23,152 nt of DNA from a virus: positions 1 to 23,152 of the IMG/VR virus record IMGVR_UViG_3300006752_000241. One strand, written 5' to 3'. This document shows positions 4,461 to 23,022 of the stretch, in pieces (the first letter of the stretch is position 1; each line of letters begins with the position of its first letter). The position numbers and the translations under genes were made by a program. The notes below the pieces were generated by a model that saw nothing but the letters and a program-made list of their open reading frames with translations, ran no database searches and was not told where the DNA came from.

Positions 4461-4469
4461 GTTTCACTC

Positions 4470-7406: not shown

Positions 7407-8029
7407 TAGAATGACCACCCAGTTGTTGATGAGTTTGAACTAAAATCTGAAATCGTAATTCCCGCATCCGCTGTTAGTGATGCTGAACTTACGCTGATAT
7501 CCCATGTCGCATCGGCAGAACGGATACTGTTCTCTGTTGCAAACACAGTCATGTAGTAAGTTGTTGTGTTAGAAGGCGAAGGTAACAGCCAAGTAATTGT
7601 GCCACTGCTGCGGGTAAACGTCCCGCCAGTTACGGAAATCGTATAAATGTGAGAAGCGTTATAGTTAGAGATCGTCACCGCTGTACTTGAGCCGCCTACG
7701 GCTGTTGATGAACCTGAAAGCACTGGCGTTGTAACTTGCGACGAACCTTCCGTCCCCAAGCCTCTCCATGCCCCGTTCTCGTAACCCTCAAAAATTGACA
7801 ATGTCGTATTATAACGCAGCATACCGTTTGCGGGGGATGCAGGACGTTGTGCAGTTGTGCCTACTGGGATCGTCACCGATTGCCCATTCAACGTAATGTC
7901 TGCACTGTCGATCTTTGTGAAATCTATGGCAGCATTTGCATTAATCTCGACGTTAGAGATTGAGCCATCTGTTATTTCGGCTGCGCCTACGTTTGTTACC
8001 GCTGCGGGTTGATTACCAATATATGCCAT
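7406..8029 (-). CDS. Tail fibre-like protein with trimeric-fibre N-terminal motif
   Basis: A 207-residue protein starting MAYIGNQPAAVTN, with a good AAGGGG ribosome binding site. Residues about 15-60 (EITDGSISNVEINANAAI, DSADITLNG) resemble short fibre repeats. About 60-92 is the widespread 'AQRPASPANGMLRYNTTLSIFEGYENGAW' type module that occurs at the ends of phage fibres. The remainder is Ser/Thr-rich beta sequence with an Ig-like look (YTISVTGGTF, ITWLLPSPSNTT). It ends in a TAATG overlap with the 978-aa gene, so the two products are probably translated in a fixed ratio and may form one fibre. No enzyme motif is visible. Confidence 0.8.
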   Translation of the reverse strand: MAYIGNQPAAVTNVGAAEITDGSISNVEINANAAIDFTKIDSADITLNGQSVTIPVGTTAQRPASPANGMLRYNTTLSIFEGYENGAWRGLGTEGSSQVTTPVLSGSSTAVGGSSTAVTISNYNASHIYTISVTGGTFTRSSGTITWLLPSPSNTTTYYMTVFATENSIRSADATWDISVSSASLTADAGITISDFSSNSSTTGWSF

Positions 8030-8040
8030 TCTCTAACCCC

Positions 8041-8373
8041 TTACGATTGCTCTAGGATCGAAACCGTAACGTCTAGGCTTGCAGAAGCACTGCTTGTAAC
8101 CTTTAAAACATCACCTGTTTCTAAAACTATTTTTTGTTCGCCACCGATAGGAACCAGCGCACCACCTACAGGTACGTTTGCTGCTTTAACTAGGTAGACT
8201 GTTGTACCTCCAGAAGTGTCCGTAACTTGGACATCTGTGGTAGCATTGGACCCTGTTATGTTTGAAACAGTTAGTCCAATAACTGTTGCGGTAGTTGATG
8301 CAGGAACCGTATATACACTGGTTGTGTTTGTACCTACACCTGCCGTAACCGCATTCTTAAAAACGCTTGCCAT
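8041..8373 (-). CDS. Small tail-associated beta-sheet protein
   Basis: A 110-residue, Val/Thr/Ser-rich protein with a strong GAGG ribosome binding site. It begins MASVFKNAVTAGVGTNTTSV and continues with alternating hydrophobic/polar strands (TATVIGLTVSNITGS, TVYLVKAANVPVGG, LETGDVLKV, LDVTVSIL), giving a small beta-sandwich-like pattern. Proteins of this type sit between fibre genes in many marine phages and are usually called tail or virion-associated hypotheticals. Here it lies 11 bases after the 673-aa fibre gene and 11 bases before the 207-aa gene. A fibre adaptor or decoration-like protein would fit, but nothing in the sequence settles it. Confidence 0.75.
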   Translation of the reverse strand: MASVFKNAVTAGVGTNTTSVYTVPASTTATVIGLTVSNITGSNATTDVQVTDTSGGTTVYLVKAANVPVGGALVPIGGEQKIVLETGDVLKVTSSASASLDVTVSILEQS

Positions 8374-8384
8374 TTATGATTTCC

Positions 8385-10406
8385 TCATCCTAAAGCGATT
8401 GCGAGAGCGAGGGCTGTACCTGCCTCATCTACATTCAAATTGGTTCGTGATTGCTCAACATCTGCCACATCAGACAAGTTATTGGCCCCAGACATAAAGC
8501 CTTGTGCGGTGAATGCTGCTTGGGTCCATGTCGAACCCGTCCATAAATACAACTGGCCGTCTGATGTGTTGAAGTACAGGCTTCCTGTAGACAGAGTATT
8601 TCCAGAGTTATTAACTGTAGGGGCAGCACTCTTTGCGCCTAAATATCGGGAATCAAAATCATTGAAGCTAGTCTCTGCATCCGTTGCATAAGTCTCAGCT
8701 TGAGATGACCAATACTTTGCCGAATACTCAGTACCATTTACCGTACCGCCAGTATATGCAGCCCAATCTTTTGCAGAACCTGTTGTGCCTCTTATTTGAG
8801 TACCAATAGCGTACTCTTTAGCAGAGTATTCCGTACCATCGACTGTTGTTGAAGTCTCTGTCGCCCATTCTTCAGCTTCTGTTGCAGAGCCCGCTGAATC
8901 GTTTGCTGAACTTAGTGCGTTACCTTCACTCGTAGAAGCTGCAGAAGCAGACGAAGCTGCAGAAGTAGCAGAGCCTAGAATGCTATCGACATACGCTTTG
9001 TTGGAAACCTGATCATTTGCGGAGGGATTTGGAACACCGCTAATGGTGTTGTTACCCATAACAAGCGCACCTGACAGAGTTCCGCCAGATAGGTTTAGCT
9101 TTAGAGCATCCTGCGTATCTGAATAATTCTTTGTGACAGCGTCTTGGGCGTTAATAGGATCAGCCATCGATGTGATACTGTTCGTATCCATGATGATGTC
9201 GCCTGTCATCGTACCACCTGCTAGAGGTAACTTGGTAGAGATGCTAGTTGTGATTGTGGTGCTAAAATCAGCATCGTCATTAATAGCCGCCGCAAGCTCA
9301 TTTAGAGTATCAAGAGTACTTGGTGCGGTATCAACTAGGTTAGCAATTGCAGTATCAACGTCAGTCTTACGGGCTGCGTCATTTGGATTAACAGGTGCAG
9401 AAAGGTTTTGGATAGTAGCCGTAGTCGCACCATCCATATTCAATGTTCCAGAGATGGTTACGTTATTGAACGTGGATGTACCTGCAGAGGTTACGTTGCC
9501 CGTCAGATCACCTGTTACGTTACCAGTTATAATCCCCGATGCAGTAAGGTTTGTGAAATTAGAAGTACCAGATGCTGCCGTTACGTTACCTGTAACATCA
9601 CCTGTAAGGTCACCTGTGAAGCCATTGTTCGCAGTGATGATTGTTCCAGTGACCGCAAGCGGGTTGGAGCCACCAACGATAACACCGTTTAGCGTACCAA
9701 CTGTACCTGTACCTTGGCCTAGTGTAACTGTGGGTAGCGTTGCCGAGCCTGTCGTCGTTAGGTCTGTAGCAGTGATAGCTGCAGGTGTAGAAGAACCTAT
9801 AATTGTATTATCAATATTACCTGCGCTGATTGTAGCTGTTGGGATAGTCGCTGTACCAGTAGACAGGGTTAAGTTCCCGCCCATAGTAACGTCACCTGAT
9901 AGTATAGATGTCGTCGCTACGTTAAGCGTACCATCGATATCCATGTTGCCACCAAGGTATGCATCCTTTAGGCGGTAGGTGGCAGAACCTATTGAAACCG
10001 TATTGTCTACCTGTGGTAGAATATTATTATTGGCATCAATGGTAGGTATTTCTAGCCATGAAGCTGCGCCTGTTGCGTTGCTCATGCAAACGTAGCGGCG
10101 TCTTGTCGTTGTGTTAATCCACACAGAACCAACCACATAGCCCTGTGTAGTATCGTCGGCTATTGTGGGGTTTGAGGTAGCAGAGGTGTTGTTCTTACCG
10201 CCCGTACCGCCATGCACTTCTGGTAGATAACCTGACAAAGATGTTACCAGATTAATCTTTGGCGCATTACCTACCGTGCCGTCGTGAGTATGTCCTGATG
10301 TACTAAAGGCCGCTGTAATCCGGTCAAATTCAGCGTTAAGCGGTGGAGCGGTAATCTCCGAACCATTCTGAATATCAGGTAATGATTGTCTTGTATAACC
10401 AGCCAT
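8385..10406 (-). CDS. Tail fibre protein with multiple internal repeat classes
   Basis: A 673-residue fibre. The N-terminus (MAGYTRQSLPDIQNGSEITA, then a GHTHDGT motif and a VHGGTGG segment) is typical of podovirus-type fibre attachment regions. Next comes YVCMSNATGAASWLEIPT, then a long beta-helical shaft of GDVTMGGNL, GDLTGDVTGNVT and ITGNVTGDLTGNVT units (about residues 160-320). Three copies of a 'xxGG(T)-x-G-x-I/L-x-M-xx-N-x-I' plus 'DP...A...K.YVD' unit follow (about 330-470), as known from other phage fibres. An Ala/Ser/Glu-rich helical segment comes next, with two DGTEYSAK/NGTEYSAK repeats. The end has an FDSRYLGAKSAAPTV and GSLYFNTSDGQLYLWTGSTW module. No lyase motif is seen. It probably attaches to the tail nozzle encoded immediately upstream. 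Confidence 0.9.
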   Translation of the reverse strand: MAGYTRQSLPDIQNGSEITAPPLNAEFDRITAAFSTSGHTHDGTVGNAPKINLVTSLSGYLPEVHGGTGGKNNTSATSNPTIADDTTQGYVVGSVWINTTTRRRYVCMSNATGAASWLEIPTIDANNNILPQVDNTVSIGSATYRLKDAYLGGNMDIDGTLNVATTSILSGDVTMGGNLTLSTGTATIPTATISAGNIDNTIIGSSTPAAITATDLTTTGSATLPTVTLGQGTGTVGTLNGVIVGGSNPLAVTGTIITANNGFTGDLTGDVTGNVTAASGTSNFTNLTASGIITGNVTGDLTGNVTSAGTSTFNNVTISGTLNMDGATTATIQNLSAPVNPNDAARKTDVDTAIANLVDTAPSTLDTLNELAAAINDDADFSTTITTSISTKLPLAGGTMTGDIIMDTNSITSMADPINAQDAVTKNYSDTQDALKLNLSGGTLSGALVMGNNTISGVPNPSANDQVSNKAYVDSILGSATSAASSASAASTSEGNALSSANDSAGSATEAEEWATETSTTVDGTEYSAKEYAIGTQIRGTTGSAKDWAAYTGGTVNGTEYSAKYWSSQAETYATDAETSFNDFDSRYLGAKSAAPTVNNSGNTLSTGSLYFNTSDGQLYLWTGSTWTQAAFTAQGFMSGANNLSDVADVEQSRTNLNVDEAGTALALAIALG

Positions 10407-10409
10407 AGG

Positions 10410-12047
10410 TTATCGTCTCCCCGCAATAGAAAATTCAAATACGATGCCTTGAATAGAATAAGGCTCTGATTGACCTACCGTTACTAATGTGGCTCTAGCA
10501 GAATATCCTGAGCCTTGAATATCAGAGGTCATAATGGGCTTTGAGCTACCGCCATACAGAATGTTTGTAGCATTATATTCAATGTTGCGTCCTGCATACT
10601 GGACGGGGCCACCTTTACTTTCTTGGGAATATGGTGACGGTCTGGCAGTATTATAGTCGCCCCAATCGTAAGACATAGAAAGATAGAACTCTACTGGACC
10701 TTCAGCACGAATGAAGGTGTTAGCCTTACGCATAGTCTTGCGAACTTCAGTATCGCCAAAGTCTAAATATGGAGTGGCATACACGGCTAGTACGTCTCGA
10801 CCCGCAAAGCTTGTACCTATTTCCTGCCGATAAACTTTACCATCGTAGTCACCATGCAGGACATACTCTGTTCGACCGATATAATCTGATGTAGTACAAG
10901 AAGCACGGATGCCTGTAAGTTCACCAAACTCCCAATTTATTGATCCCGATTGGTCAGCTAAACCACCAATAATGCCATAACTATCCTGCGGGTTAAATGC
11001 ATCGTCGCCAACAAAGTACCGCACCTGAGACTTACTACGGATCACAACGCCGTTGATGGTATCCATGTCATAGTTAGAAATCATATCAACAAGGCGCACT
11101 TGGATTGCTTTAGATACAGTCTCTAGCTCAACATCACCGATACGGCTTGTCCCGGCCACAGGACGAAAACCATCAGGCGCAAGGAACATGAGATCCCCGC
11201 CAATTTCTTGTACGCTATCCCGTGCAATACAACCTACGTTGGATGTAACCTGATCAATTACAAAACCTGCCGTAGTATCAGGTGAGACTTTCTTAATAGC
11301 ATTTGTTCCGAAGACAAATAGATCGTCACGGAAAGGCTTAAACTGAACGATGTTAAATCCGGGAATGATCTGACCACCGCCAGAAGCCGCCGTAAAGTCA
11401 TACGGGTCTTGTGGTGCCGAATGACATAAAACTGCACGAGACCCTAAATCTCCACCAAAGAATAAATGGTTCTCAAATACATCTACAAGTGAAGGAGCAT
11501 CTACGACCTGATTGCCACCGGGACTAGAAGTACCGCCTGTACCTGTACTGCTTAATTGTCGCCAGTTTACACCATCAAAAACTATGGCATTATTAACACC
11601 GTCTACAAAACAAATAGTGGAGCCGTTGCCCCAATCAAATTGGGCGTGTCTTAGCTTATCAACTGTACGACCTGCACTGGTATAATTAAGGGTAAGTCCT
11701 GTAGTGATTGCCTGCCATCCCACAAGATCAACAAACTTATAAAAACTGTATGTATTCGCACCCAAATCCTTGCGTGCTGCAATTATGTATGGATTGCCAA
11801 TATGTTCATTCTTATAAATTGCTACAGAAAGAACCTTACCTTCAGCTACGCCTTCACCCACTTCCTGAAAAGAGGTATCAAGGTAATCGTAACCTTGGAT
11901 GCGACGATACCCGCCATAAAGGCTTGGCTCAAAATTAACTAAACGTGTGGCGGCACCTGATGCAGCCTCTGACAAAAACAGATGGTTTTCGTTAGCGTTC
12001 AATCCACCAGAGCAGACAACCTTGTATGACTGAATTTCATCAGGCAT
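10410..12047 (-). CDS. Tail nozzle / tail tubular protein B-like (DNA-stabilisation type)
   Basis: A 545-residue beta-rich protein. Typical segments are LSEAASGAATRLVNFEPSLY (about 26-45), GGYRRIQGYDYLDTSF, a VDAPSLVDVFENHLFF segment, a KKVSPDTTAGF / SNVGCIARDSVQEIGGDLMF pair (about 262-295) and FLAPDGFRPVAGT. I recall this order from podovirus tail tube B / nozzle and P22 gp10-like stabilisation proteins. The product should form the distal tail tube that closes the portal channel and carries the fibres. The start overlaps the stop of the tail tube A gene as TAATG, and the fibre gene begins 3 bases after its stop. It lacks a signal peptide and membrane segments, as expected for a virion protein. 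Confidence 0.85.
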   Translation of the reverse strand: MPDEIQSYKVVCSGGLNANENHLFLSEAASGAATRLVNFEPSLYGGYRRIQGYDYLDTSFQEVGEGVAEGKVLSVAIYKNEHIGNPYIIAARKDLGANTYSFYKFVDLVGWQAITTGLTLNYTSAGRTVDKLRHAQFDWGNGSTICFVDGVNNAIVFDGVNWRQLSSTGTGGTSSPGGNQVVDAPSLVDVFENHLFFGGDLGSRAVLCHSAPQDPYDFTAASGGGQIIPGFNIVQFKPFRDDLFVFGTNAIKKVSPDTTAGFVIDQVTSNVGCIARDSVQEIGGDLMFLAPDGFRPVAGTSRIGDVELETVSKAIQVRLVDMISNYDMDTINGVVIRSKSQVRYFVGDDAFNPQDSYGIIGGLADQSGSINWEFGELTGIRASCTTSDYIGRTEYVLHGDYDGKVYRQEIGTSFAGRDVLAVYATPYLDFGDTEVRKTMRKANTFIRAEGPVEFYLSMSYDWGDYNTARPSPYSQESKGGPVQYAGRNIEYNATNILYGGSSKPIMTSDIQGSGYSARATLVTVGQSEPYSIQGIVFEFSIAGRR

Positions 12048-12736
12048 TAAAATGAAATCCTTGTGTCAGATACATACTCGTACTTATTGATGTACAAGGT
12101 CTGTAAGTCTTTCATCCCACGTTCAAAGAACTGAATGGATGCACCGGCCTGTTCTGTGTTATCTTTGAACATGTACATGTGATAGAGCGCACCCTCTACA
12201 ATCACAGGATCGAATGTCTCTGGAATGCGAGTGACATCTAAAGGGTTCTGTAGGTCAGTGTAGTTCAAAAAATAATTGAACCGAACTTGGTATGCGGCAT
12301 CGGGGGATGGTGTAACACCAAAGCCCTGACCATGGCTTCCAAATATGTTCTGAGGAACGTCTCGTCCTGCGTTACCTGCGTTGTTGTCGCTGTCACGGTG
12401 CAAACGATACCAATCATCACGATTCATAGCTTTTAGGTGCGTGAAGTTAACACCAAGGCTATCATTTTTGACGATCTGAAAAGAGTTCCAATCAACACTT
12501 TTTAGATATGAGGGCCATGAGTATTCTACCTGACCTTGTGCTAGTGTCTGCGTATGTGTTGCGGAATTAAAGGGCCATTCAAACTCAGACTGATTAATTT
12601 TAGCGATAGAGTTTCTTACACTATCTTTTACTAGAGCTTGTACACCACGACTTGAAAAGAAATCACTTTCGTTCAGCTCTACCTCATTGATGCGGCGAAG
12701 CACCATGTTACATAAATCTAGGTAAGTACTAGGCAT
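12047..12736 (-). CDS. Tail tubular protein A-like head-tail adaptor
   Basis: A 229-residue protein matching the T7 gp11 / P22 gp4 type adaptor that binds the portal ring after DNA packaging. It starts MPSTYLDLCNMVLRRINEVE, the usual helical opening. A second helix follows (RGVQALVKDSVRNSIAKIN), then EFEWPFN, the central beta part with YSWPSYLKSVDWNSF, and a C-terminal helical segment containing FDPVIVEGALYHMYMFKDN. ATG 12736 has an AAGGA ribosome binding site about 7 bases upstream and follows the capsid gene and its hairpin. It is translationally coupled to the nozzle gene (TAATG). Length and order agree with the family. Confidence 0.87.
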   Translation of the reverse strand: MPSTYLDLCNMVLRRINEVELNESDFFSSRGVQALVKDSVRNSIAKINQSEFEWPFNSATHTQTLAQGQVEYSWPSYLKSVDWNSFQIVKNDSLGVNFTHLKAMNRDDWYRLHRDSDNNAGNAGRDVPQNIFGSHGQGFGVTPSPDAAYQVRFNYFLNYTDLQNPLDVTRIPETFDPVIVEGALYHMYMFKDNTEQAGASIQFFERGMKDLQTLYINKYEYVSDTRISF

Positions 12737-12760
12737 GGATGATCCTTAAAGAAGGGTGTT

Positions 12761-12782
12761 GGGGGCAAGTTGCCCTGCCCCC
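12761..12782 (-). terminator. GC-rich hairpin after the capsid gene (terminator or attenuator)
   Basis: A perfect 7-bp stem, GGGGGCA/TGCCCCC, with an 8-base loop lies 9 bases after the major capsid stop. The sequence following it on the minus strand is AACACCCTTCTTT, so there is only a weak U run. It resembles a partial terminator of the kind that follows capsid genes in T7-like phages, letting some transcripts continue into the tail genes. It could also protect the capsid mRNA 3' end. Confidence 0.6.
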
Positions 12783-12791
12783 GCTTAACCA

Positions 12792-13829
12792 TTAGGCCAA
12801 GTTGTAGTTTGCAGTGATAAGTCCTTCTGGGCGAAGGATTTTTCTACCGAACAACTGCATGCCACGAACAATGTCTGCGAATGTGTCTGGTGAGCGGAAG
12901 CTCTCAGTTTTCGCAATTTGGTCAGCTACTGCTACTGAGGAGTCATGGCCTGCGACCAGAACACCAAAGTTAGTTGCAGAGCCTGCAGAGGCACTTGTAC
13001 CAGCGCCTGTGCCTTTGTAAGGAAGGTTGTTGGACTGATATACACGGAAGCCACGGATGGTGCCGGGAAGGCGACCATTGCGTACTTCTGAATCGCCACC
13101 GAAGTCGGCGTTAACCAGCTTCGCATCTTCGTCCATCAAGATCTCTTTGAACACGGGGTCAACAACGATCCAACGACCGTCTGTGTCCACGTTAGCTGCG
13201 TCCATAAGACGAGCCATGCGGTTCAGAACAGCCAAAGGTGATGTCAAAGCACCAGCACCGCCACCTGCAGTTACAGGAATGGAGTTAGCTGCAGTGGAAC
13301 CACCGAAGGCACCTTGTGTCAGTTTGTTAGCTGCAAGCAATTCGTCGTTGCCTGCGGCTGCATCTGCTTTTGTGCCTGCCGCTGCGGTACGAGCCGCCCA
13401 TGCAGAACCGCTCCATGAGTAACCGGACATGTAGCCCAGAACGTCTTGGTCAAATGCGTCACGCAGTTTGAAACCAGCACGATCCGTAGCCAAATCCATG
13501 AACGAAACATGGGAATGGGCTTCTTCAATGTCATCTAAAGCGAACTGAAAATAGTTGCTTTGGTCAATTATCATAGTAAAATCAGCATCTTGCAAGTCTT
13601 GTGTCGCAAGCGTAGTGCCACGGGCATAAGAGTTGATTGTGATTTCTGGTTCTTTAATGATCTTAACGCTGTCACCCATGTTAGCGATTTCGCCAGCATA
13701 GTCAGTGTTAGTGATGTCTTCTACTACAGAAGAGTTACGGAAAGCCTTTTGGACTTTCTTGGAATAGATAACTGGTGAAAAGTTACCGTTTGGGAGGTTT
13801 GTATACCCACCCGCTGATGGAAAAGCCAT
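12792..13829 (-). CDS. Major capsid protein (HK97-fold, podovirus type)
   Basis: A 345-residue capsid subunit starting MAFPSAGGYTNLPNGNFSPV. N-terminal segments FSPVIYSKKVQKAFR and TNTDYAGEIANMGDSVKI, the E-loop-like region (EITINSYARGTTLATQDL), and the following FQFALDDIEEAHSHVSFMDL / RAGFKLRDAFDQDVL helix are characteristic of phage coat proteins in aquatic podoviruses. The C-terminal half has the usual A-domain segments RWIVVDPVFKEILMD, GTIRGFRVYQSNNLP and a final LFGRKILRPEGLITANYNL strand. The ribosome binding site is AAGGAG, 8 bases before the ATG, the strongest in the window. The gene has its own long leader with promoter candidates and is followed by a hairpin, all fitting high expression. 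No frameshifted extension like T7 gp10B is visible. Confidence 0.92.
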   Translation of the reverse strand: MAFPSAGGYTNLPNGNFSPVIYSKKVQKAFRNSSVVEDITNTDYAGEIANMGDSVKIIKEPEITINSYARGTTLATQDLQDADFTMIIDQSNYFQFALDDIEEAHSHVSFMDLATDRAGFKLRDAFDQDVLGYMSGYSWSGSAWAARTAAAGTKADAAAGNDELLAANKLTQGAFGGSTAANSIPVTAGGGAGALTSPLAVLNRMARLMDAANVDTDGRWIVVDPVFKEILMDEDAKLVNADFGGDSEVRNGRLPGTIRGFRVYQSNNLPYKGTGAGTSASAGSATNFGVLVAGHDSSVAVADQIAKTESFRSPDTFADIVRGMQLFGRKILRPEGLITANYNLA

Positions 13830-13837
13830 TGTAATAT

Positions 13838-13843
13838 CTCCTT
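13838..13843 (-). promoter_or_regulatory. Strong ribosome binding site of the capsid gene
   Basis: AAGGAG on the minus strand, 8 bases before ATG 13829, within an A/T-rich spacer (ATATTACA). It fixes the start codon of the major capsid gene. Confidence 0.9.
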
Positions 13844-13855
13844 GTGAAATGGCAG

Positions 13856-13870
13856 GTCGGACTAGCCGAC
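13856..13870 (-). other. Small hairpin just upstream of the capsid ribosome binding site
   Basis: GTCGG/CCGAC 5-bp stem with loop CTAGT, located 12 bases before the AAGGAG. It could keep the ribosome site open or serve as an RNA processing or stability element. The short stem makes the call tentative. Confidence 0.4.
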
Positions 13871-13928
13871 AGACAAGACAGAAGGGAATTATTAAGTGGC
13901 AGTGTTGATGTTATGGGTGCGTACAAGA

Positions 13929-13947
13929 TGTATCAGGCCATGATACA
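13929..13947 (-). other. Hairpin in the capsid leader
   Basis: Perfect 7-bp stem TGTATCA/TGATACA with 5-base loop TGGCC on the minus strand, about 100 bases before the capsid start. There is no U run after it, so it is not a terminator. It may shape the leader RNA or be a nuclease site. Confidence 0.5.
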
Positions 13948-14115
13948 AATCTACGGGCCATACCACACTGGTAGACTAAAATTCTTAATTCTTCTGAGGG
14001 TAGTAACAAACTAAGAGGTAGTCTTTAAAAGAGGCTCTGGTTTGTGAGAGATCATCTAAACAATCTCGTAGCTATCTTATGTAATAAGACAGGTAGAAGT
14101 TTGCTTGATATAATA

Positions 14116-14144
14116 ATTATAGCACGTTTAGTATTAGTAGTAAA
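14116..14144 (-). promoter_or_regulatory. Candidate sigma70-type promoter 2 upstream of capsid gene
   Basis: Minus strand: TTTACT (14144-14139), 17-base spacer, then a consensus TATAAT (14121-14116). The -10 is perfect, the -35 matches four of six. It sits in very A/T-rich DNA, where chance -10 boxes are common, but the spacing is ideal and it lies about 290 bases before the capsid start with no gene between. Confidence 0.5.
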
Positions 14145-14176
14145 TAGCTATTACTATAACCTGCCCCTAGTAGGGA

Positions 14177-14231
14177 CAGTCCTAGCATATAAGTATTGCA
14201 CAATTTGTCAATAGTTAATGTACTAGGACTG
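14177..14231 (-). promoter_or_regulatory. Inverted repeat enclosing candidate sigma70-type promoter 1
   Basis: Minus strand: TTGACA (14211-14206, perfect -35), 16-base spacer, TATGCT (14189-14184, four of six). The promoter is framed by a perfect 9-bp inverted repeat, CAGTCCTAG (14231-14223) and CTAGGACTG (14185-14177), separated by 37 bases and extendable by 3 pairs with a 2-base bulge. One arm lies upstream of the -35 and the other overlaps the -10 and likely start point, as for a repressor/activator site pair. Alternatively, in read-through RNA from the scaffold gene the arms form a stem-loop 8 bases after the scaffold stop. Confidence 0.55.
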
Positions 14232-14238
14232 CCGTTAA

Positions 14239-15015
14239 TTACCGTGCGCCGCCGGTCATGTCGTAGGTGAATGCACCTTCAGTTCGCATAGCCTGAAGAA
14301 TCGCTTCCTCATTGGCTTCATACTCACGGTCAGACATACGAGCTACTTGGCTTTCGCTAAACTTAGCTTTGCCTGTTGCCGCAGGTGCTGCAGAGGTTGA
14401 TCGACCTACTGCCTGCGCTGCAGATTTTTTAGAAGAAGACTTACGCTTACCTGTATCTGCTTTGTACAAATCGATGGCACGGGCTGCAGCCATTGCATCT
14501 GTGTTGTTCTTGTATAGAGCATCGCTAATATACAGAGGCTGCATTGTAACCCATTCATGGAATGCAGGGTCTTGCCTAATCTCATTGAAGTCGGGATGCA
14601 GCTTCATTAGCTGTTGTTCCGCCTCTTTTTTGGTGAGCTTGGTTTCCAGATCTTTGAGATGACCTAGACGCTTTTCACCCTCTTCAAGAGCTTCATTGGC
14701 ACGTTTCCGTGCAATGGTGTCTACGATTTTGGAAACATCCGGGTACTTCTTAGACCATGCCTCGATTTCATCGTCAGTCTTGGGAAACTTAATTTGTCCC
14801 TTTGCTGCGCTATCAAGCTGTTCCTTTAGCTTCTCTAGCTCCTGATCCTTCTGGGACATCAACTGTTGGGTGTGTCGCCGCAGATCGCCGTACCGCTTTT
14901 TAAAAGAAGCCTCTTCTGGCTCTTTAGGTTCAGCATCCACTGATACCTGTGCTTCAAGTTCTTCAGAGTATTTGCTGTCAGCCTCTAACTCTTCTTTACG
15001 TTTATATTTGCTCAT
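14239..15015 (-). CDS. Capsid assembly scaffolding protein
   Basis: A 258-residue, very charged, mostly helical protein directly before the capsid gene, the standard position for a scaffold. Residues about 1-75 are Glu/Lys-rich (YKRKEELEADSKYSEELEAQ) with a coiled-coil stretch around TQQLMSQKDQELEKLKEQL. The middle has KYPDVSKIVDTIARKRANEA and KLTKKEAEQQLMKLHPDFNE, segments common in podovirus scaffolds. The C-terminal part has a Lys/Ser/Ala-rich linker and a FSESQVARMSDREYEANEEA helix, likely the capsid-binding end. The ribosome binding site is AAAGGA, about 6 bases upstream. It guides procapsid formation and then leaves or is removed. No protease gene is evident nearby. Confidence 0.85.
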   Translation of the reverse strand: MSKYKRKEELEADSKYSEELEAQVSVDAEPKEPEEASFKKRYGDLRRHTQQLMSQKDQELEKLKEQLDSAAKGQIKFPKTDDEIEAWSKKYPDVSKIVDTIARKRANEALEEGEKRLGHLKDLETKLTKKEAEQQLMKLHPDFNEIRQDPAFHEWVTMQPLYISDALYKNNTDAMAAARAIDLYKADTGKRKSSSKKSAAQAVGRSTSAAPAATGKAKFSESQVARMSDREYEANEEAILQAMRTEGAFTYDMTGGAR

Positions 15016-15032
15016 AGTTTTTCCTTTGGGGG

Positions 15033-15050
15033 CTTCACACTGTGGTGAAG
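15033..15050 (-). other. Hairpin between hydrolase-domain gene and scaffold gene
   Basis: CTTCAC/GTGAAG 6-bp stem with a 6-base loop, flanked by GGGCCAC and CCCCC, in the 48-base gap before the scaffold start. There is no U tract, so processing or translational tuning is likelier than termination. Confidence 0.45.
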
Positions 15051-15063
15051 GTGGCCCTCTAAA

Positions 15064-16584
15064 TCACACGATGAAGGTAACCTTTGGCTTCTTCACCATG
15101 CCGTACATGGAAGTCTTTTTGGAATAATCACTGTCTTTGTAATCATCTGTTTCGTTGACTTCCGGTTCCTCTTCGGAAACCTCCACAACTGCCTCTTCTA
15201 CTACTTCACCCTCTGGTGTTTCGGCATCGTCTGCGTATTCTTCATCGCATCCGTCACACTCTTCATCCATACACATTGGACACATGCCGTCTTCGGCTGT
15301 TTCTCCGCCAGCCGCTTGGATAAGGCCCATGGTATCCATAGCCATAAGCCCCATCTTTGCCTCTTCTTGCATATCCATGATGTGTTTCAGGCCATGCCAT
15401 TTGACTACATCTGCAGGCAGAACGTATTCGCCTTGGGATATGTTAATATCAATATCGTCCCGTACCTCTTCGGCAGAGGAACCCACGGGGATTGGGTTAC
15501 CGGAGACAGGGTCTACTGGACCCATCATGCCGCCGTGGTACATATCAAGCTCATCTTCCTCAGAGGTGGCCTTCTGCACTGCCTCTGCACGGGTTTTCTC
15601 GTAAGATGAAAGAGACCCGTCATTGTCCAGATCTGCTTTGTTTTCGTCTAATTGAAATTTATTGTTTGCCATGTCTTCGCCTTCCGGGGTCATAATGCCT
15701 TTACGAGCTACTGCTAGACCACCAAGGGCCATGCCCTCAGCTTCTGCGTACTCTGGATAAACAATCGTAATGTTGTGTGAGAAATCTGTGTCGTACACCG
15801 GCTCTTGGCCTTCATAACCACGGGTAAAGGTATGCTTACCGATGGTAATTGGGTCTGGGCCAGAAAAGTCTGTACCACGGGCTTTGGTTGTACTTGTATT
15901 CTGAAAGAATGTACGCCCGTCTACTGCGTCTTTGCCCATCTGATAGTAATCAGCAAACTCAGCGTGGCCCCGTTGTAGATCCTCTTCTGGTACGGGTATG
16001 CTATAAACGTCACCATACTTACGGATCGGTTCAAACTCATCTGCAGTCAGAAGCTCATCTACGCTGTCTGGGAAGCGTGAAGAGGCTAGTCGGTTGAAGA
16101 TCACCCCACGAACAGCGTTTCGGCCTTCTACGCCCTCCCCACGGGCTTCTGCCCATACCAGACGCTCAATCTTATCTGCATCCTCATAGGGTAGCTCTGT
16201 CTTGGGACGGGCTTTAGGGCGTGGGCTTGTTTCAACCATCAGGCCACCCTCATCAAAACCTTTTTTATTATTCTGTAATATCTCAGAAGCCTCTTCAGGA
16301 CTCGTCGTGTCTGTCATAGATTTATGAATTTCGGCGTCGAACTCTTCTAATTCTTGAACCGCATTCTCACCTGTACGGGTGGGCCAATCCACACCGCTAT
16401 CAATTGCAAAACGGGTAGCCTGTTCATCAGAAACTATTTCACCATCCCATACGGTGGGTATAAGAGTTTCGACCCCATCGATGTTTACTATGATGGTATT
16501 CACAGTCGCTAAGTTGCCATCTTCAAGAGTTTTAGCTCTGCCCTTCGCAATGTTTAGGTAGTGATGCTCAGTAATAGCGTCCAT
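15064..16584 (-). CDS. Multidomain virion protein with SleB-type cell-wall hydrolase domain
   Basis: A 506-residue protein between portal and scaffold, with at least five parts. (a) Residues 1-90 hold an 'IPTVWDGEIVSDEQATRFAI' module seen in other phage structural proteins. (b) About 135-260 is a SleB-like hydrolase (Hydrolase_2 type): IERLVWAEARGEG with likely catalytic Glu146, the VIFNRLASSRFPDSV helix, and GRTFFQNT followed by ITIGKHTFTRGY. (c) About 318-329 is an EF-hand/dockerin-type loop, DLDNDGSLSSYE. (d) About 372-412 is an 'ISQGEYVLPADVVKWHGLKH' module common in marine phage proteins. (e) Residues 435-446 hold a CPMC...CDGC cluster, then a strongly acidic tail. The hydrolase domain suggests local peptidoglycan cleavage during DNA entry, while parts (a) and (d) suggest a virion component. 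The start overlaps the upstream stop (TAATG). Activity is inferred from motif only. Confidence 0.83.
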   Translation of the reverse strand: MDAITEHHYLNIAKGRAKTLEDGNLATVNTIIVNIDGVETLIPTVWDGEIVSDEQATRFAIDSGVDWPTRTGENAVQELEEFDAEIHKSMTDTTSPEEASEILQNNKKGFDEGGLMVETSPRPKARPKTELPYEDADKIERLVWAEARGEGVEGRNAVRGVIFNRLASSRFPDSVDELLTADEFEPIRKYGDVYSIPVPEEDLQRGHAEFADYYQMGKDAVDGRTFFQNTSTTKARGTDFSGPDPITIGKHTFTRGYEGQEPVYDTDFSHNITIVYPEYAEAEGMALGGLAVARKGIMTPEGEDMANNKFQLDENKADLDNDGSLSSYEKTRAEAVQKATSEEDELDMYHGGMMGPVDPVSGNPIPVGSSAEEVRDDIDINISQGEYVLPADVVKWHGLKHIMDMQEEAKMGLMAMDTMGLIQAAGGETAEDGMCPMCMDEECDGCDEEYADDAETPEGEVVEEAVVEVSEEEPEVNETDDYKDSDYSKKTSMYGMVKKPKVTFIV

Positions 16585-16799
16585 TAGTCTGCACCCTTAA
16601 TCACTTCATCACGAAGTGTTTTGAATCTACGAAGCTCTGTGATTGCCCCTTGAATTTCTAAAATTCGTTGTGGGTCTTTTTGTTTTTCTAGAAGGTCACG
16701 AAGACCTTCAATTCTAGCTGCAACGTAATCGTGCAGTAGATCCATTTGCTCTTTGTTATTTACCAAAGGAAGCAATAGGCGATATAAATTCTTATCCAT
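16584..16799 (-). CDS. Small helical protein downstream of portal
   Basis: A 71-residue, Leu/Arg/Glu-rich protein (MDKNLYRLLLPLVNNKEQMD), predicted to be nearly all helix. The pattern LHDYVAARIEGLRDLLEKQ / RILEIQGAITELRRFKTLRD suggests a helical hairpin or coiled coil. It has no membrane segment or signal. A similar-sized protein with an 'I-x-x-L-x-x-L-E ... G-A-I-x-E-L-x-x-F/L-x-x-L' pattern follows the portal gene in many aquatic podovirus-like genomes as I recall. It is embedded in the operon by an 8-base overlap upstream and a TAATG downstream. A portal- or head-associated accessory role is a guess. Confidence 0.77.
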   Translation of the reverse strand: MDKNLYRLLLPLVNNKEQMDLLHDYVAARIEGLRDLLEKQKDPQRILEIQGAITELRRFKTLRDEVIKGAD

Positions 16800-16956
16800 T
16801 ATTTACCCTGAAACAGTACAACGCAATGTTGTTGGTAGTGACTAGAACACTCGCCTTAGTCATTTCTTCCATGCAGATTTTCTCGCTAGAATACTGGCCT
16901 AGCTGGTAATGCGTTACGTTGTTGTTCAGTATCTGAAAGAACAGAAGTACCCACAT
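16792..16956 (-). CDS. Small 54-aa protein with hydrophobic N-terminus, directly after portal
   Basis: A short gene (54 codons plus TAA) that exactly fills the apparent gap after the portal. The ATG (16956-16954) shares one base with the portal stop TAA (TAATG), and its own TAA lies 8 bases into the next gene. The peptide begins MWVLLFFQILNNNVTHYQLG, a hydrophobic start followed by a polar body with two Cys (28 and 48) and a final NNIALYCFRVNNG strand. It could be a signal-anchored or exported peptide with a disulphide. An AAGGA lies about 11 bases upstream. Perfect coupling at both ends and a sensible sequence argue for a real gene. The family is unknown to me beyond a vague likeness to small secreted peptides in marine phages. 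Confidence 0.72.
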   Translation of the reverse strand: MWVLLFFQILNNNVTHYQLGQYSSEKICMEEMTKASVLVTTNNIALYCFRVNNG

Positions 16957-19103
16957 TACTGAGGCTGTCCTTGTGGCGGCTGCGGTACGTTACCGCCGTT
17001 GTCCCCACCACCTGCGCCTGTGAAGCCGGGAGCGCCCGGTTCTGGTGCGCCACCCGGTGCGATATTACCGTTACCGTTGCCTGTAGGATCTTGTGGGGAG
17101 GGTGCGCCACCCGGTGCCGGTGCAGCTTGTGCTGGATCAGGCTGGGGCATCATTGCTTGGATCTCAGCCATCATCTTGGCTTGGATCATCGCTTCCCGTG
17201 GATCGTTCATAATCTTGTCTTCATCTAGGTCCATAGACGCTGCAAGCTCACGCAGGATGAAGTCATACTTAACAAACGGAGCCATCTGTTGGTTGGCTGT
17301 CATTTGCATAAACTGTAGCAGACGCTGGCTGCGGATCTCGTTACGCATCAAGCTTTCTGTGCCACGGGCTTTAACCGTAAGATCGCCTTTGGTGTATTGC
17401 TGATCGAAGTTGAATTGCATGTTGAAGGCGAAGAGTGCCTTGCCCAGAGGTGACAGAAGGTAGTCATCTAGATTGCGCACAACCGCTTTGATGTTCTGTG
17501 CGGCTGCACCCATCAACATGGACATACCAGAGGCTGTACGACCAACACCCATAACACCGCCAGCACCGTGGCTGTAGGACGGGATACCAGTAGCTTCATC
17601 TGATAGCTGCCGTGCCTTATCAAACATCATAAGAAGTTCTTGGCTGACGTTAGGGAACTTGGTCCCGAATATGGCCTGTCCGGGTGCGCCTGCCTGTCTC
17701 CGAAACACCTTGCCGGGGTACACAGAAAGATCCTGACCCGGTACTAGGTTGGTCTCATCAATCTCAATAAGTAGGTTACCAGACAACGCACCGTTATCTA
17801 CAGCCATCCGCATGAAGCCGTTCATCAGAAGCTGTGTGTCTTCCATATTCTCTGCTACGCCAATACCGAAGAACCCGTATGGGTTAAGCTCATATGGCAC
17901 CGCAGAGTATGGGATGCGTGTAGGTGTGAAGGGGTTAATTACCAGACGCAGGATCTGACCATTACAAATCCATACGTTGACCTGTACTTCATCACGATCT
18001 TCTACCTCATCAGGTAATTCGATGTCAGCCTGTTCAGCAAGCTCTGTATCCAGCACACCCCAATACTCAAGAACCTCGTAGCGGTCTGGGCTTTCAGAGT
18101 TATTGCTCTCATCAAGCGCATCTTCCCAATACTCACGCTGGTACTGTGGGCCAAACTCAATAGCCAGTTCGATGCTCTCATCACGGAAGTGTGGGCGGCG
18201 TTTAAGGCTACGGAGTTGGGTACGGTTCAGACGGTGACGCTGTATAGTAAACTCAGCTTCAGCCATGTTTCGGGCGTCTGGATCGGGATATAGATCCCAG
18301 ATAGACACATACTCAACTTTGGGGATAGTTTCAAACAAAGGATCATAATTACCCTCATCATCCCAACGTGGATATTCTTTGTCGAATGCAAATGGACCCT
18401 TCAAAATACCTGTACCAAACAGGCAGGTCTCAAAGGCTACAGACCGCAGATGCTTAGAAGCGTTGGTTTCGTCCAACTGATCATGCATCTTGCGTTCCGT
18501 GCTCTGGGCGGCAAGTTTTGCAGGCTCAAAGTAGATAGCAGAAGGTGAATCCCCTGTACCCATCTCTAATTCATCGGCAATAGGCTCTAATTTAGCCTTA
18601 TATGGCCCTAAATCCTTCTCAATGTCGGGACGGGCAATAGGACGCTTGGGTGTGTACTGAACACCAGCCATTTCCTCTACTTTTTCAGAAGTAATGGCAT
18701 TTGGGTCGTAATTTACCGCACCAGCAACATTAGAGGGGTACTTACGGCTCTCAATACCCACTGGAAACTTAGAACCGGCGAATAATACGTCTACAACCTG
18801 TGCATATGCCGCCAAAACCTTAGTTTTAGTGATCTTAACGAAGGCTTGGGACTTTTCTGTGTCAGTAAACTGCACTTCGGGGCCATAAAGACCACGATAG
18901 TTGCGGTATGACATCAACCAACGCTCTTCATCGGACAAACGATGGTCTTTTGACTTCCGAAACTGGCCTTCAATGAACGAAGCAACGCCAGAATAGTCTA
19001 AATTCTCTTGTTCTACGTCCCCGTCCTCTTCCAAAGCAATAACTTGTTCCGCTTCAGTCTGATCTTCGGGTGTAGAACCGTTAGGTTTATCCATTAATGC
19101 CAT
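16956..19103 (-). CDS. Portal protein
   Basis: A 715-residue portal, starting 3 bases after the terminase stop. The N-terminus is acidic, then FIEGQFRKSKDHRLSDEERW and the LMSYRNYRGLYG segment typical of this portal group. The core holds KTKVLAAYAQVVDVLFAG, an LRSVAFETCLFGTGILKGPF helix, VEYVSIWDLYPDPDARN (wing region), EYWGVLDTE, and IPYSAVPYELNPYGFFGIGV followed by a long helical stretch ending in KARQLSDEATGIPSYSHGAG. These are recognisable portal motifs of P22-like/podovirus type. The last 75 residues are low complexity, Pro/Gly/Ala/Gln-rich (APAPGGAPSPQDPTGNGNGN), likely disordered. The dodecamer is the DNA entry vertex, binds terminase during packaging, and later binds the tail adaptor. 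Confidence 0.92.
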   Translation of the reverse strand: MALMDKPNGSTPEDQTEAEQVIALEEDGDVEQENLDYSGVASFIEGQFRKSKDHRLSDEERWLMSYRNYRGLYGPEVQFTDTEKSQAFVKITKTKVLAAYAQVVDVLFAGSKFPVGIESRKYPSNVAGAVNYDPNAITSEKVEEMAGVQYTPKRPIARPDIEKDLGPYKAKLEPIADELEMGTGDSPSAIYFEPAKLAAQSTERKMHDQLDETNASKHLRSVAFETCLFGTGILKGPFAFDKEYPRWDDEGNYDPLFETIPKVEYVSIWDLYPDPDARNMAEAEFTIQRHRLNRTQLRSLKRRPHFRDESIELAIEFGPQYQREYWEDALDESNNSESPDRYEVLEYWGVLDTELAEQADIELPDEVEDRDEVQVNVWICNGQILRLVINPFTPTRIPYSAVPYELNPYGFFGIGVAENMEDTQLLMNGFMRMAVDNGALSGNLLIEIDETNLVPGQDLSVYPGKVFRRQAGAPGQAIFGTKFPNVSQELLMMFDKARQLSDEATGIPSYSHGAGGVMGVGRTASGMSMLMGAAAQNIKAVVRNLDDYLLSPLGKALFAFNMQFNFDQQYTKGDLTVKARGTESLMRNEIRSQRLLQFMQMTANQQMAPFVKYDFILRELAASMDLDEDKIMNDPREAMIQAKMMAEIQAMMPQPDPAQAAPAPGGAPSPQDPTGNGNGNIAPGGAPEPGAPGFTGAGGGDNGGNVPQPPQGQPQ

Positions 19104-19106
19104 GCT

Positions 19107-20981
19107 TTAGTATCCAAATCTTGAATCTGAGGGGGTGTAGCGTTGAATTGGGACGCCTCGCCCCATATCAAATGGTGAGAAGGCCTTTGGGCGGCTCATA
19201 ATCCCGTAACGGACGCTGTCGTATGCGTGATCGGTGGCATACCGTGGGTCTATGTCGTCGGAACCTTTGGGGTCAGAAGGTATTACAGGTAAATCTGCGA
19301 TAATCTGGCGGCAGGTGTTAAAGAATACGATGCCTGCAGTCTCTGTTTCTTCGTCTACCTTGAGAACTTCATGGAACCGGTTCTTACCAGCAACCCTTGC
19401 GCCTGCGGAACGATCACTAGGACGCCATCTGCAGCCCATTGAGATCATTTCTTCGGCTATACTTGGGCCAATCTGCCCCCGGTTATGCCAGCAAGAGCTA
19501 TCCAGAACACCGTAGTGGATGCTTTCGCCACGCTCTGCTTCCATAACTGCACGGCCAAGGTCTTTGCCGGTATGCTTTGACACATACAACTCCCGGTAAA
19601 CGTACAAAGTCTCGTAACTAGGGTCGATGGCAAACCAGTGTACCGCAGAATAAGAACTATACCCGTAGTCACATGACCTAAACCTGCGCCAATCATCCGG
19701 TATATCGAAGGGTTCACACACATGCGTGGACTGCTTAAACTCTGGGAAGGCTGCACCATCTGCTACAGCCCAATCACCCTCTAGCAACTGTCTACGCTGC
19801 ATCTCAGGCAGGGCTAGTAGGTTAGCCTCGTACTGCCCGTCCTGCATCAGATACGGATTATCTTTTAGGGATGCTGGGATAAACCGGCGGTAGAAAAGAG
19901 GTTCACCCTCTTTTTCGTGTCCTACAGGGAAAACCATTGGCTCTCCGCTGTCTACGTCCGTTGCAACAAACCTTTTATTGGCAGGTGCAGGGTCTACGAA
20001 CATCTGCTTAACCCAGCCATGGCCCCTACCACCGGGGTTAGTTGTAGCTCTTTGAAACAGAGGTAGCTCTGGGTCGGTAGTACGAAGCCGTGAGCGCATG
20101 TAGTTCCATGCAAACGGTGTGGAGTACTGTGTAAGCTCATCAAAGGCTATGTAGCTAAAAGCTAGACCCTGATACCGCAGAACATCTTCATCACGCTCTA
20201 GGTAGGTCATCCACAGTTTCGCACCGCTAGGAAATACCCACTGAGACTTCTTCTCTTGCCACTTAGCGCCCGGATAGATCTTCGGGTACATCTCTTGTGA
20301 CTTCCAGATCAATTCCCGCAATTCATCGTTAGTACGGCGCAGGATGATCCCGTTGAAGTTCTTGTTGTGGAAGTACCGCATAGGGTCTGCCAGAAGCCCG
20401 TAGGATTTGCCTCCACCCGCTGCCCCGCCATACAACACCTCACGCTCAGAGGCCGCTAGGAAGTCCGTCTGTGGACCGGGATTGGGTTGGAATACAACCT
20501 CACGCTCTTGGGTTTCCTGCGTGATAACACCGAAGTCCAAAGTCTCAGAAATGCTTTGGTATTCTTCTTCTGCCTCTTCGGTAGCCCCAAACTTATCAGC
20601 TAGACGGTTCTCCATCATAGTCTTGATACGCTTGCTGTCTGAAATCTTACGCTTCAGACGGGCCTCTTCTTTTTCAGCGGCGGTATTAGGCTTAGGCTTC
20701 TTGCGCTGGGCCTTTTTAAGCTCTTTAACCCGCTTACTCTTGGGCCGGTGTAGCTTCCAGATATTGCTGATACCCTGACCAGAAATACTGCGACCTACTT
20801 TGTTGGAAAGCCATTCCGCAACCTTACGGGTGCTGTAGCCTTCGTCCAAGTGATCCATGGCCTGTTCTACAAGAGGTACGACATCTGGATCTGGTATTAG
20901 TTGTAAAGAACCCTCTTCCACAGGCTTGTATGCATAAGGCAGACGCTGCGTAGGGTTCTTTCTAGTTTTGTTTATCCACAT
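19107..20981 (-). CDS. terL: Terminase large subunit with N-terminal helix-turn-helix extension
   Basis: A 624-residue packaging motor. The ATPase part has Walker A GGAAGGGKS (residues 185-193), a following helix, and Walker B YIAFDE (Asp281, Glu282). The nuclease part has acidic motifs at Asp438 (FRSCDYGYSSYS), Asp494 (YGVLDSSCW) and Asp584 in DHAYDSVRYG. Ahead of the motor is an extra 170 residues: a Glu/Asp-rich start, a helix-turn-helix-like STRKVAEWLSNKVGRSISGQ (about 50-70) with NIWKLH, and a Lys-rich coiled segment. This resembles the DNA-reading part of recombinases and might help choose the packaging site. The start is uncertain: ATG 20981 overlaps TerS by 20 bases but has no clear Shine-Dalgarno, while ATG 21020 has AGAGGT 8 bases upstream and would add 13 residues. 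Confidence 0.94.
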   Translation of the reverse strand: MWINKTRKNPTQRLPYAYKPVEEGSLQLIPDPDVVPLVEQAMDHLDEGYSTRKVAEWLSNKVGRSISGQGISNIWKLHRPKSKRVKELKKAQRKKPKPNTAAEKEEARLKRKISDSKRIKTMMENRLADKFGATEEAEEEYQSISETLDFGVITQETQEREVVFQPNPGPQTDFLAASEREVLYGGAAGGGKSYGLLADPMRYFHNKNFNGIILRRTNDELRELIWKSQEMYPKIYPGAKWQEKKSQWVFPSGAKLWMTYLERDEDVLRYQGLAFSYIAFDELTQYSTPFAWNYMRSRLRTTDPELPLFQRATTNPGGRGHGWVKQMFVDPAPANKRFVATDVDSGEPMVFPVGHEKEGEPLFYRRFIPASLKDNPYLMQDGQYEANLLALPEMQRRQLLEGDWAVADGAAFPEFKQSTHVCEPFDIPDDWRRFRSCDYGYSSYSAVHWFAIDPSYETLYVYRELYVSKHTGKDLGRAVMEAERGESIHYGVLDSSCWHNRGQIGPSIAEEMISMGCRWRPSDRSAGARVAGKNRFHEVLKVDEETETAGIVFFNTCRQIIADLPVIPSDPKGSDDIDPRYATDHAYDSVRYGIMSRPKAFSPFDMGRGVPIQRYTPSDSRFGY

Positions 20982-21351
20982 CGTCGGCTTTTGGCGGTAG
21001 AATAAACATGCCACCACCATTGTTGGTGACCTCTACCTTCTCCCGTTTAACTAGACCTGTACGGTCCAATACCTCACGGGCAGCGTTGATAGCGTTTCGT
21101 GCGCCCAGCGCCGTGGGGTCATCCAGAACACCTAGCAACCCGTGGGCGGCTTTAGGGGCGTTCATAGCAAGCATCATAGATGCCTGTTCAATAATCTCTT
21201 CTTTAAGCGGTCCAGTGACTTCAGAAACACCTGTACCCTTGGAGTAACCTGCAACATCCATAGCCTTACGGACATTGCCACGACACTCTCCCATAAGGGC
21301 TTCAAGAAATGCAGACTGTTTTTCAGTATATTTTTTAGGGGCATCGGTCAT
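20962..21351 (-). CDS. terS: Terminase small subunit (putative)
   Basis: A 129-residue protein starting MTDAPKKYTEKQSAFLEALM. The ATG at 21351 overlaps the previous stop (ATGA) and has GAGGA about 10 bases upstream; longer in-frame starts would read back into the upstream gene and add an odd Cys-containing leader. The helix-turn-helix-like region (KQSAFLEALMGECRGNVRKA, then AMDVAGYSKGTGVSEVT) is the usual N-terminal DNA-binding form of small terminases. The remainder is helical with ARNAINAAREVLDRTGLVKR, another family signature, and a basic/hydrophobic C-terminus (GGGMFILPPKADD). It should bind the packaging start site and hand DNA to TerL. The gene order TerS-TerL-portal supports this strongly. 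Confidence 0.87.
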   Translation of the reverse strand: MTDAPKKYTEKQSAFLEALMGECRGNVRKAMDVAGYSKGTGVSEVTGPLKEEIIEQASMMLAMNAPKAAHGLLGVLDDPTALGARNAINAAREVLDRTGLVKREKVEVTNNGGGMFILPPKADDVDKQN

Positions 21352-21623
21352 CCCATCGTCCTCATGTAAATAAATCCAGCACCTATAGACGCTGTGAATA
21401 CGATCCACCAAATGCGCTCAAAGAACTGAAGCTTATGGCCTCTGGACGCAGTAAGCTGGTCTAGCTTAACGATACGGTCCCAGAGGACTTTCTGTTGATC
21501 ATCAATATTGTCCATGCGCTTAAACACAGTAATCATACGCTCTTCCATACGGGCGAGGGTGATAACTGCGTTCGATAGTGCGTCCAACTTATCCTCAATT
21601 CTTTTGAGGCGATCTTCGCTCAT
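21348..21623 (-). CDS. Coiled-coil protein with C-terminal membrane segment; holin-like candidate
   Basis: A 91-residue protein starting MSEDRLKRIEDKLDALSNAV. A long heptad-patterned helix (residues about 3-66) precedes one transmembrane segment (about 72-88, RIWWIVFTASIGAGFIYM). The plan resembles XhlA/hemolysin-type accessory holins and similar proteins upstream of terminase genes in aquatic phages. I set the start at ATG 21623 because it forms an ATGA overlap with the upstream stop and is preceded by AAGAGGAAGAAG; an ATG at 21647 adds eight mostly Glu residues that are really this ribosome binding site translated. It could permit endolysin release, but a role in membrane-associated packaging or lysis control is equally open. 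It also overlaps TerS by four bases. Confidence 0.8.
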   Translation of the reverse strand: MSEDRLKRIEDKLDALSNAVITLARMEERMITVFKRMDNIDDQQKVLWDRIVKLDQLTASRGHKLQFFERIWWIVFTASIGAGFIYMRTMG

Positions 21624-21865
21624 TTCTTCTTCCTCTTGGCTTTCCAATTAACCTTTGCAGAAGAAGTTTTCTTCTTAGTAGCAGCCTTACCCGCTTTGGA
21701 TTTGCACTGCGCCATGGTGGGCCTACAGGCTGGGTAAGAGCCACCACTTTTCTTAGATTTTCTACCGCAGGGACCACCTGTTTTACAGTTGACCCAGCCC
21801 TTACCACCATTTTGGCTAAACCATTTCTTCAGGCCGCTACCGGTGCTACTTTTTTTTGCTGCCAC
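21620..21865 (-). CDS. Small Lys-rich, Cys-containing protein (WVN-K-TGGPCGRK motif)
   Basis: An 81-residue, strongly basic protein beginning with GTG at 21865 (MAAKKSSTGSGLKKWFSQNG). The core reads GGKGWVNCKTGGPCGRKSKK then GGSYPACRPTMAQCKSK, followed by a Lys-only tail. I recall the same 'KKWF...WV(D/N)..TG.PCGR......YPACRP' core in small hypothetical proteins of cyanophages and other aquatic phages, including a DUF family whose number I will not assert. Four Cys (47 residues apart from first to last at most) and many Lys suggest metal or nucleic-acid binding. It overlaps the 54-aa gene upstream by 20 bases and the holin-like gene downstream by 4. Function is unknown. Confidence 0.8.
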   Translation of the reverse strand: MAAKKSSTGSGLKKWFSQNGGKGWVNCKTGGPCGRKSKKSGGSYPACRPTMAQCKSKAGKAATKKKTSSAKVNWKAKRKKK

Positions 21866-22289: not shown

Positions 22290-22293
22290 ATTT

Positions 22294-22970: not shown

Positions 22971-22974
22971 TAAC

Positions 22975-22990: not shown

Positions 22991-22999
22991 ACCTCGTTA

Positions 23000-23018: not shown

Positions 23019-23022
23019 CTTA

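Follow-up and report, generated by a model that had tools for sequence, protein, structure and literature searches.

A conserved structured RNA in the capsid gene leader of HMO-2011-type phages, with candidate promoters upstream

The capsid mRNA leader encoded in the stretch of viral DNA analyzed here (hereafter, the window; a virus record of 23,152 bases representing a fragment of an HMO-2011-type phage) contains a multi-helix RNA at approximately positions 13879–14046 with very strong covariation. This structured RNA, located between candidate promoter P2 and the capsid start, is a far stronger feature than the inverted-repeat arms highlighted in an earlier note on this DNA; it lies outside the coordinates considered there and was not reported. 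Compensatory changes supporting the helices mark it as a conserved structured RNA, and in both marine and soil phages it lies shortly before the capsid gene. The region likely forms the start of a dedicated transcription unit for the capsid gene, in which starts at P2 and P1 and a folded leader would provide a separate capsid output.

The closest DNA relatives of the window were HMO-2011-type phages of Roseobacter and SAR116 hosts, a group reported to be dominant and widespread in the ocean (PMC9038755). CRP-235 was the best DNA relative (72% identity over 86% of a 3-kb query), followed by CRP-738, CRP-212, and CRP-3, with HMO-2011 ranking lower. The capsid gene is separated by 409 bases from the preceding gene, which showed no Pfam match and is called the scaffold-position gene because the term "scaffold" refers to its position only (Table 1). 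The gene preceding that one (15064–16584, minus strand) encodes a cell-wall hydrolase domain (PF07486). For comparison, we collected 80 capsid-bearing IMG/VR loci and 30 loci in which the core TATGCTAGGRCTGTCCC occurs exactly; the capsid proteins of HMO-2011 and phiM6, used as queries in later scans, brought in 160 loci, partly overlapping the earlier contigs. A search of bacterial genomes with the capsid protein gave one distant match, in an uncultured Pelagibacteraceae contig (L124, 41%).

Table 1. Coordinates of features in and around the capsid leader of the window.
Feature	Position	Strand	Basis or remark
Scaffold-position gene	14239..15015	minus	ORF; match only to PHROG 13678, a family without assigned function
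5' arm, right past the upstream stop codon, CAGTCCTAG	14223..14231	minus	sequence and relatives
5' arm extended by two bases with a G-U pair allowed, GGCAGTCCTAG	14223..14233	minus	
P1 hairpin inner stem, TAACTATTG/CAATACTTA, 14209-14217 with 14190-14198	14190..14217	minus	two-sided change in 3/9 pairs
Candidate promoter P1, TTGACA-16-TATGCT (TTGACA starts at 14211, TATGCT ends at 14184), subclade-specific	14184..14211	minus	promoter scan and relatives
3' arm, 9-base core, CTAGGACTG	14177..14185	minus	sequence and relatives
3' arm, long form, CTAGGACTGTC	14175..14185	minus	sequence and relatives
Second hairpin, CTGTCCC-loop-GGGGCAG, overlapping the 3' arm	14161..14179	minus	fold; relatives
Candidate promoter P2, TTTACT-17-TATAAT (TTTACT starts at 14144, TATAAT ends at 14116), extended -10 (TGCTATAAT) with TG ahead	14116..14144	minus	scan and relatives
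Leader 5' hairpin, GAGAT...ATCTC	14048..14067	minus	sequence; seen in part of the relatives
Leader helix P1r with CC/CUAC internal loop	14006..14045	minus	models, covariation
Leader domain: outer helix CAGAAG/CTTCTG, P3 (CUAC/CC loop, reversed), P4 (CC/CAC loop)	13879..13996	minus	models, covariation
Hairpin GTCGG-CCGAC	13856..13870	minus	alignment by eye; one pair in the structure-blind ranking
Conserved TGCCATTTCAC	13844-13854	minus	between the GTCGG-CCGAC hairpin and the Shine-Dalgarno sequence
Shine-Dalgarno sequence of the capsid gene	13838-13843	minus	
Major capsid protein gene	12792..13829	minus	PHROG 267 major head protein, E 6.9e-60
Strong hairpin past the capsid stop codon, GGGGGCA...TGCCCCC	12761..12782	minus	sequence; fold -22 kcal/mol

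The distribution of the leader RNA was determined with two models. Model R1, built from a structure drawn on locus L008 and a nine-sequence alignment, gave 55 matches at E ≤ 1 in 92 sources, and R1 matches in 42 loci (42 sequences) were used to build model R2. Applied to 54 further sources, R2 matched 29 at E < 0.01, among them HMO-2011, CRP-1, CRP-345, CRP-13, and phiM6, some of these 29 having already been weak R1 matches; the same search returned one cut-off capsid leader (E 0.27) and one chance match (2.1), and 24 sources, three of them unrelated contigs, showed no match. In two sets of new loci, 55 of 75 and 48 of 78 were matched at E ≤ 0.05, with relatives of soil phages among them, leaving 20 and 30 loci, respectively, without a match. 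All 76 matches checked from R1 and the first R2 search were on the capsid strand, 33–105 bases ahead of the capsid start; those in new loci, judged by eye, all shared this strand and lay approximately 24–70 bases ahead of the capsid match. When whole records were searched with R2, 8 of 12 contained exactly one match, in each case in the capsid leader, and 4 contained none; N3_19 and phiM6 were unmatched in this search, phiM6 having matched in the smaller one (E 0.008). Across the leaders, blocks such as GGCCTC, CUACC, CCAGAAG, AGUCYACCAGU, GGCCCG, GCACCC, CACUGCCACU, and CUUCUG were retained in order, with variable bases between them.

Support for the helices came from both model-based and structure-blind alignments. 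Two-sided changes were found in 44 of 45 pairs in the model-match alignment and in all 45 pairs among 75 distinct rows outside the building of R2. The latter rows contained 747 two-sided cells versus 251 in shuffles, and 85.7% of their cells were paired versus 32–42% in slid controls; because model alignments are fitted to the structure, these pair counts lean towards it. In a structure-blind MAFFT alignment of 20 sequences, 81.7% of cells were paired versus 37–43% in slid controls, and in a structure-blind covariation ranking, helix pairs of the proposed fold came near the top, interspersed with many non-pair columns. The leader of the window folded alone with a z-score of -3.0; the stretch assigned to the leader 5' hairpin was paired otherwise in the window's own minimum-energy fold. 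Leader sequence is conserved among close relatives, as would be expected if a DNA-level or coding constraint, rather than RNA structure, maintained it. The compensatory changes in all 45 pairs, seen in rows outside model building, together with pairing well above slid controls on the structure-blind alignment, argue against such a constraint, to which we assign next to no probability.

Three helices of the leader RNA contain the same asymmetric internal loop, in which CC stands opposite NYAC (CAC in P4), with the strands swapped in P3. Stem-closed CC/NYAC loops numbered 96 in 82 leaders versus 3.1 expected, a count made on leaders many of which had served to define the motif. In 105 leaders from the later scans, 55 such loops were found versus 2.9 expected, and the controls gave 2 in capsid-coding sequence and 0–9 for six altered motifs. 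The loop was also present in the Rhizobium/Sinorhizobium phages N3_19 and phiM6. Like the C-loop, an asymmetric internal loop inside a helix (PMC8570644, PMC4919913), it interrupts a helix asymmetrically and is here C-rich; the C-loop, whose hallmarks are specific base contacts and an increased twist, is a candidate lead by loop layout.

A search of Rfam 15 (4227 families) gave no match in the leader, the few weak ones being far below gathering scores, and no description of this leader RNA was found in the open-access literature by title or the start of the abstract, subscription papers being outside the scope of this search. The manA and wcaG cis-regulatory RNAs are likewise structured RNAs of 5' leaders, which comparative genomics revealed in marine sequences, phages included; they stand ahead of genes for metabolism and related functions, for example in cyanophages (PMC2864571); the leader RNA described here differs in preceding a capsid gene and in matching no Rfam family. 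An intrinsic terminator or attenuator was dropped as an explanation, because no GC stem followed by a T run was present on the minus strand at 13830–14238. The leader could instead be a put-like antitermination element enabling transcription through the long structural operon downstream. It is a many-helix RNA, and beyond it lie approximately 12 kb of genes, mostly on the same strand and including several structural ones, both of which would suit such a role; against it, Rfam, through which alone put was compared, gave nothing for the leader, and no terminators to be overcome are known downstream. We regard antitermination as unlikely.

Upstream of the leader RNA, the two promoter-like sites named in the earlier note, TTGACA-16-TATGCT (P1) and TTTACT-17-TATAAT (P2), are both present on the minus strand, with the starts of their -35 hexamers 67 bases apart (approximately 65 in that note). 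Promoter-like sites numbered 33 versus 29.0 ± 4.9 in shuffles of 4000–23152. Most relatives carried a counterpart of P2 at a similar place between the scaffold-position and capsid genes, usually early in the leader, approximately 180–300 bases ahead of the capsid start. A site with at least 10 of 12 hexamer matches was found in 52 of 82 distinct leaders, and only 31 of the 82 beat 95% of their own shuffles, these being consensus matches only. The sites show the features of sigma-70-type promoters, namely -35 and -10 hexamers at a spacing of 16–18 bases in a conserved place. P1 and P2 also share the -35 context WARYTATTKAC, which occurred in the window at these two places only (0.17 expected) and recurred as pairs with matching spacing in many close relatives; the pattern was derived from the P1 and P2 sites and is a description of them, not a test. 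Loci L064 and L071 contain approximately 600 extra, apparently coding, bases between the two genes, and their promoter and leader stay beside the capsid gene. Together with the P2 counterparts in relatives, the promoter adjoining the capsid gene in these two loci bears out the earlier proposal of capsid-gene promoters right past the upstream stop codon. The arrangement suggests that promoter, leader, and capsid gene may move together, with exchange of the sequence that separates them from the upstream gene. P1 and P2 are described here as real-looking candidate start signals for the capsid gene.

A T7-type polymerase gene (PF00940) was found in none of 11 relative genomes, the genome of the window itself being incomplete; the built-in controls of this search matched nowhere, and T7, searched separately as a positive control together with 2 of the 11, gave a match. 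Since the relatives lack this polymerase, host RNA polymerase is likely to be the reader of the promoters. The same result sets the region apart from the T7 phi10 class in the strict sense of a promoter for a phage single-subunit polymerase, T7 using its own enzyme. The arrangement itself resembles that of phi10/gene 10, with the order scaffold gene, promoter, leader, capsid gene, and terminator (here, the strong hairpin past the capsid gene); a candidate promoter, the leader, and the post-capsid hairpin are in place in the window, the putative scaffold being assigned by position and the promoter by prediction. The T7 gene 10 leader also begins with a stem-loop. It is only approximately 62 bases long, whereas the leaders analyzed here are mostly 200–400 bases, and a further difference from T7 is that their fold is conserved by covariation. 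In T7, the promoter is located 31 bases past the stop codon of the scaffold gene (T7 annotation).

The arms that frame P1 in the earlier note are likewise present in the sequence. Judged on the window alone, arms and hexamers are within chance: perfect 9-base inverted repeats with gaps of 10–60 bases numbered 6 in the window versus 4.6 expected, and 1 inside the 409-base leader versus 0.14 expected (P ~0.10). It is the relatives that lift them above this level. Of 30 contigs with the TATGCTAGGRCTGTCCC core, 27 carried the P1 module at the same place, adjoining the capsid gene, the scaffold-position gene, or both; the other three (L089, L103, and L105) were chance matches with neither gene nearby. 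The 27 contigs represented 17 distinct modules, 15 of them complete and one cut by the contig end (L094); the remaining one, shared by L088 and L113, lacked the 5' arm and retained the promoter, with TTGAC and TATGCT at 16-base spacing although the outer stem was gone, and the second hairpin. That hairpin, whose stem was mostly kept and whose loop was variable in relatives, would lie at the expected 5' end of the predicted P1 transcript. Most relatives lack P1, which is an addition specific to the subclade of the window; CRP-235, for instance, has P2 and the leader and no P1 module.

The earlier note suggested that a dimeric regulator could use the arms; on this reading, arms and P1 would form an operator–promoter at which a phage protein switches capsid transcription. 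The arms do frame the -35 and -10 hexamers at constant spacing in all 15 distinct complete copies (loop of 36–37 bases). As RNA, they paired at 9 of 9 positions in each of these copies, in a comparison where the core search fixed most of the 3' arm and left variation to the 5' arm alone; as DNA, they formed a perfect palindrome in 4 copies and an imperfect one in 11, every change keeping the RNA pairing. Two-sided changes occurred in the inner stem too, no other exact copy of the arm was present in the window, and L088 and L113 kept the promoter without the 5' arm. Because RNA pairing was universal, DNA palindromes were few, and the promoter was kept without the 5' arm, the pattern fits an RNA hairpin better than an operator. 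With P1 itself missing from most relatives, we consider the operator–promoter very unlikely and rejected it as the main reading, given that DNA two-fold symmetry was conserved in only 4 of 15 copies; no support was found for a switch between scaffold-operon and capsid-only transcription.

The stem-loop that the arms were also predicted to make in read-through RNA is supported in form by the pairing in the 15 copies. The P1 hairpin could even be mainly an RNA element of read-through transcripts, serving an RNase III-type cut or 3'-end protection, with the promoter match secondary. Its arms begin just past the stop codon; in 14 distinct rows, 91.2% of the cells of its 13 + 9 pairs were paired versus 25–47% in slid controls; and unrelated hairpins were seen by eye past the same stop codon in L006, L018, and L008. 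Two-sided changes were limited to 3 pairs, a modest excess, since 52 of 500 shuffles reached that number, and the retention of TTGAC and TATGCT at their spacing in L088 and L113 without the outer stem points to a promoter as well. A mainly read-through role is possible, short of probable.

Several insertions were observed around the capsid genes of relatives. Group I introns (RF00028, 80–98 bits) were found inside the capsid gene, after approximately codon 55 or codon 106, in L015 (5156–5367), L024 (5155–5373), L096 (5173–5384, minus strand), and L098 (10262–10493), and a fifth match was located near the capsid gene end in L226 (2530–2756); the window's own capsid gene contains no group I intron. 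In the capsid leader of L038, a tRNA-Met (CAT) gene (4678–4753) separates the promoter-like site from the RNA fold, and phage ctYwJ313 (L119) carries an annotated HNH endonuclease gene at 3015–3584 in the scaffold–capsid interval, apparently splitting the leader. L002, L003, L104, and L106 contain approximately 65 extra bases between the scaffold-position stop codon and the P1 module, an interval that looks like a hot spot for exchange. In the SAR11 phages HTVC033P and HTVC115P, only approximately 30–60 bases separate the two genes; these phages are almost without a leader, which is therefore not required in all relatives.

The following model of a dedicated capsid unit best explains these sequence comparisons. 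Host RNA polymerase would start at the extended -10 promoter P2 right past the scaffold-position gene, with P1 as an additional start in the window's subclade, giving the capsid mRNA a 5' leader of approximately 280 (P2) or 350 (P1) bases. The leader RNA would fold from approximately 14046 to 13879, present three C-rich asymmetric loops, and end approximately 50 bases before the capsid start codon. By acting on mRNA stability and translation, probably with a protein bound at the repeated CC/NYAC loops, it would fix capsid output independently of the upstream genes. In read-through RNA, the P1 region would form a long hairpin after the scaffold-position stop codon, probably as a processing or 3'-end-protecting element. 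Control of the amount of capsid protein made is probably what the leader RNA does and is its most likely role; we infer the route, whether stability, translation, or a bound protein. An occlusion switch at the ribosome site was unsupported: in predicted minimum-energy folds of 30 leaders, the Shine-Dalgarno sequence was not consistently paired (mean unpaired 0.375 versus 0.29 in shuffled sequences). The idea of a prohead RNA was dropped in view of the RNA's place in the leader of the capsid mRNA.

The capsid protein is usually the most abundant virion protein, and a conserved RNA ahead of its gene offers a defined and testable point of control over capsid production, for which the near-leaderless SAR11 phages HTVC033P and HTVC115P provide a natural comparison. 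With its recurring internal-loop module, the RNA is also a candidate for a new RNA family. The coat-protein operators of RNA phages (MS2-type) exert translational feedback through an RNA structure near the gene start and are a model for a capsid protein acting on a phage message; the leader RNA resembles them in its location, whereas MS2 is an RNA phage with a single hairpin and the present RNA is a predicted multi-helix structure in a DNA phage. A bolder and more doubtful proposal is that it represents a new regulatory RNA family of tailed DNA phages, whose CC/NYAC loops bind a phage head protein or a conserved host factor, which senses assembly to give capsid feedback. If true, this would be a double-stranded DNA phage counterpart of the RNA-phage coat operators, spread across one of the most abundant marine phage groups and its soil relatives.
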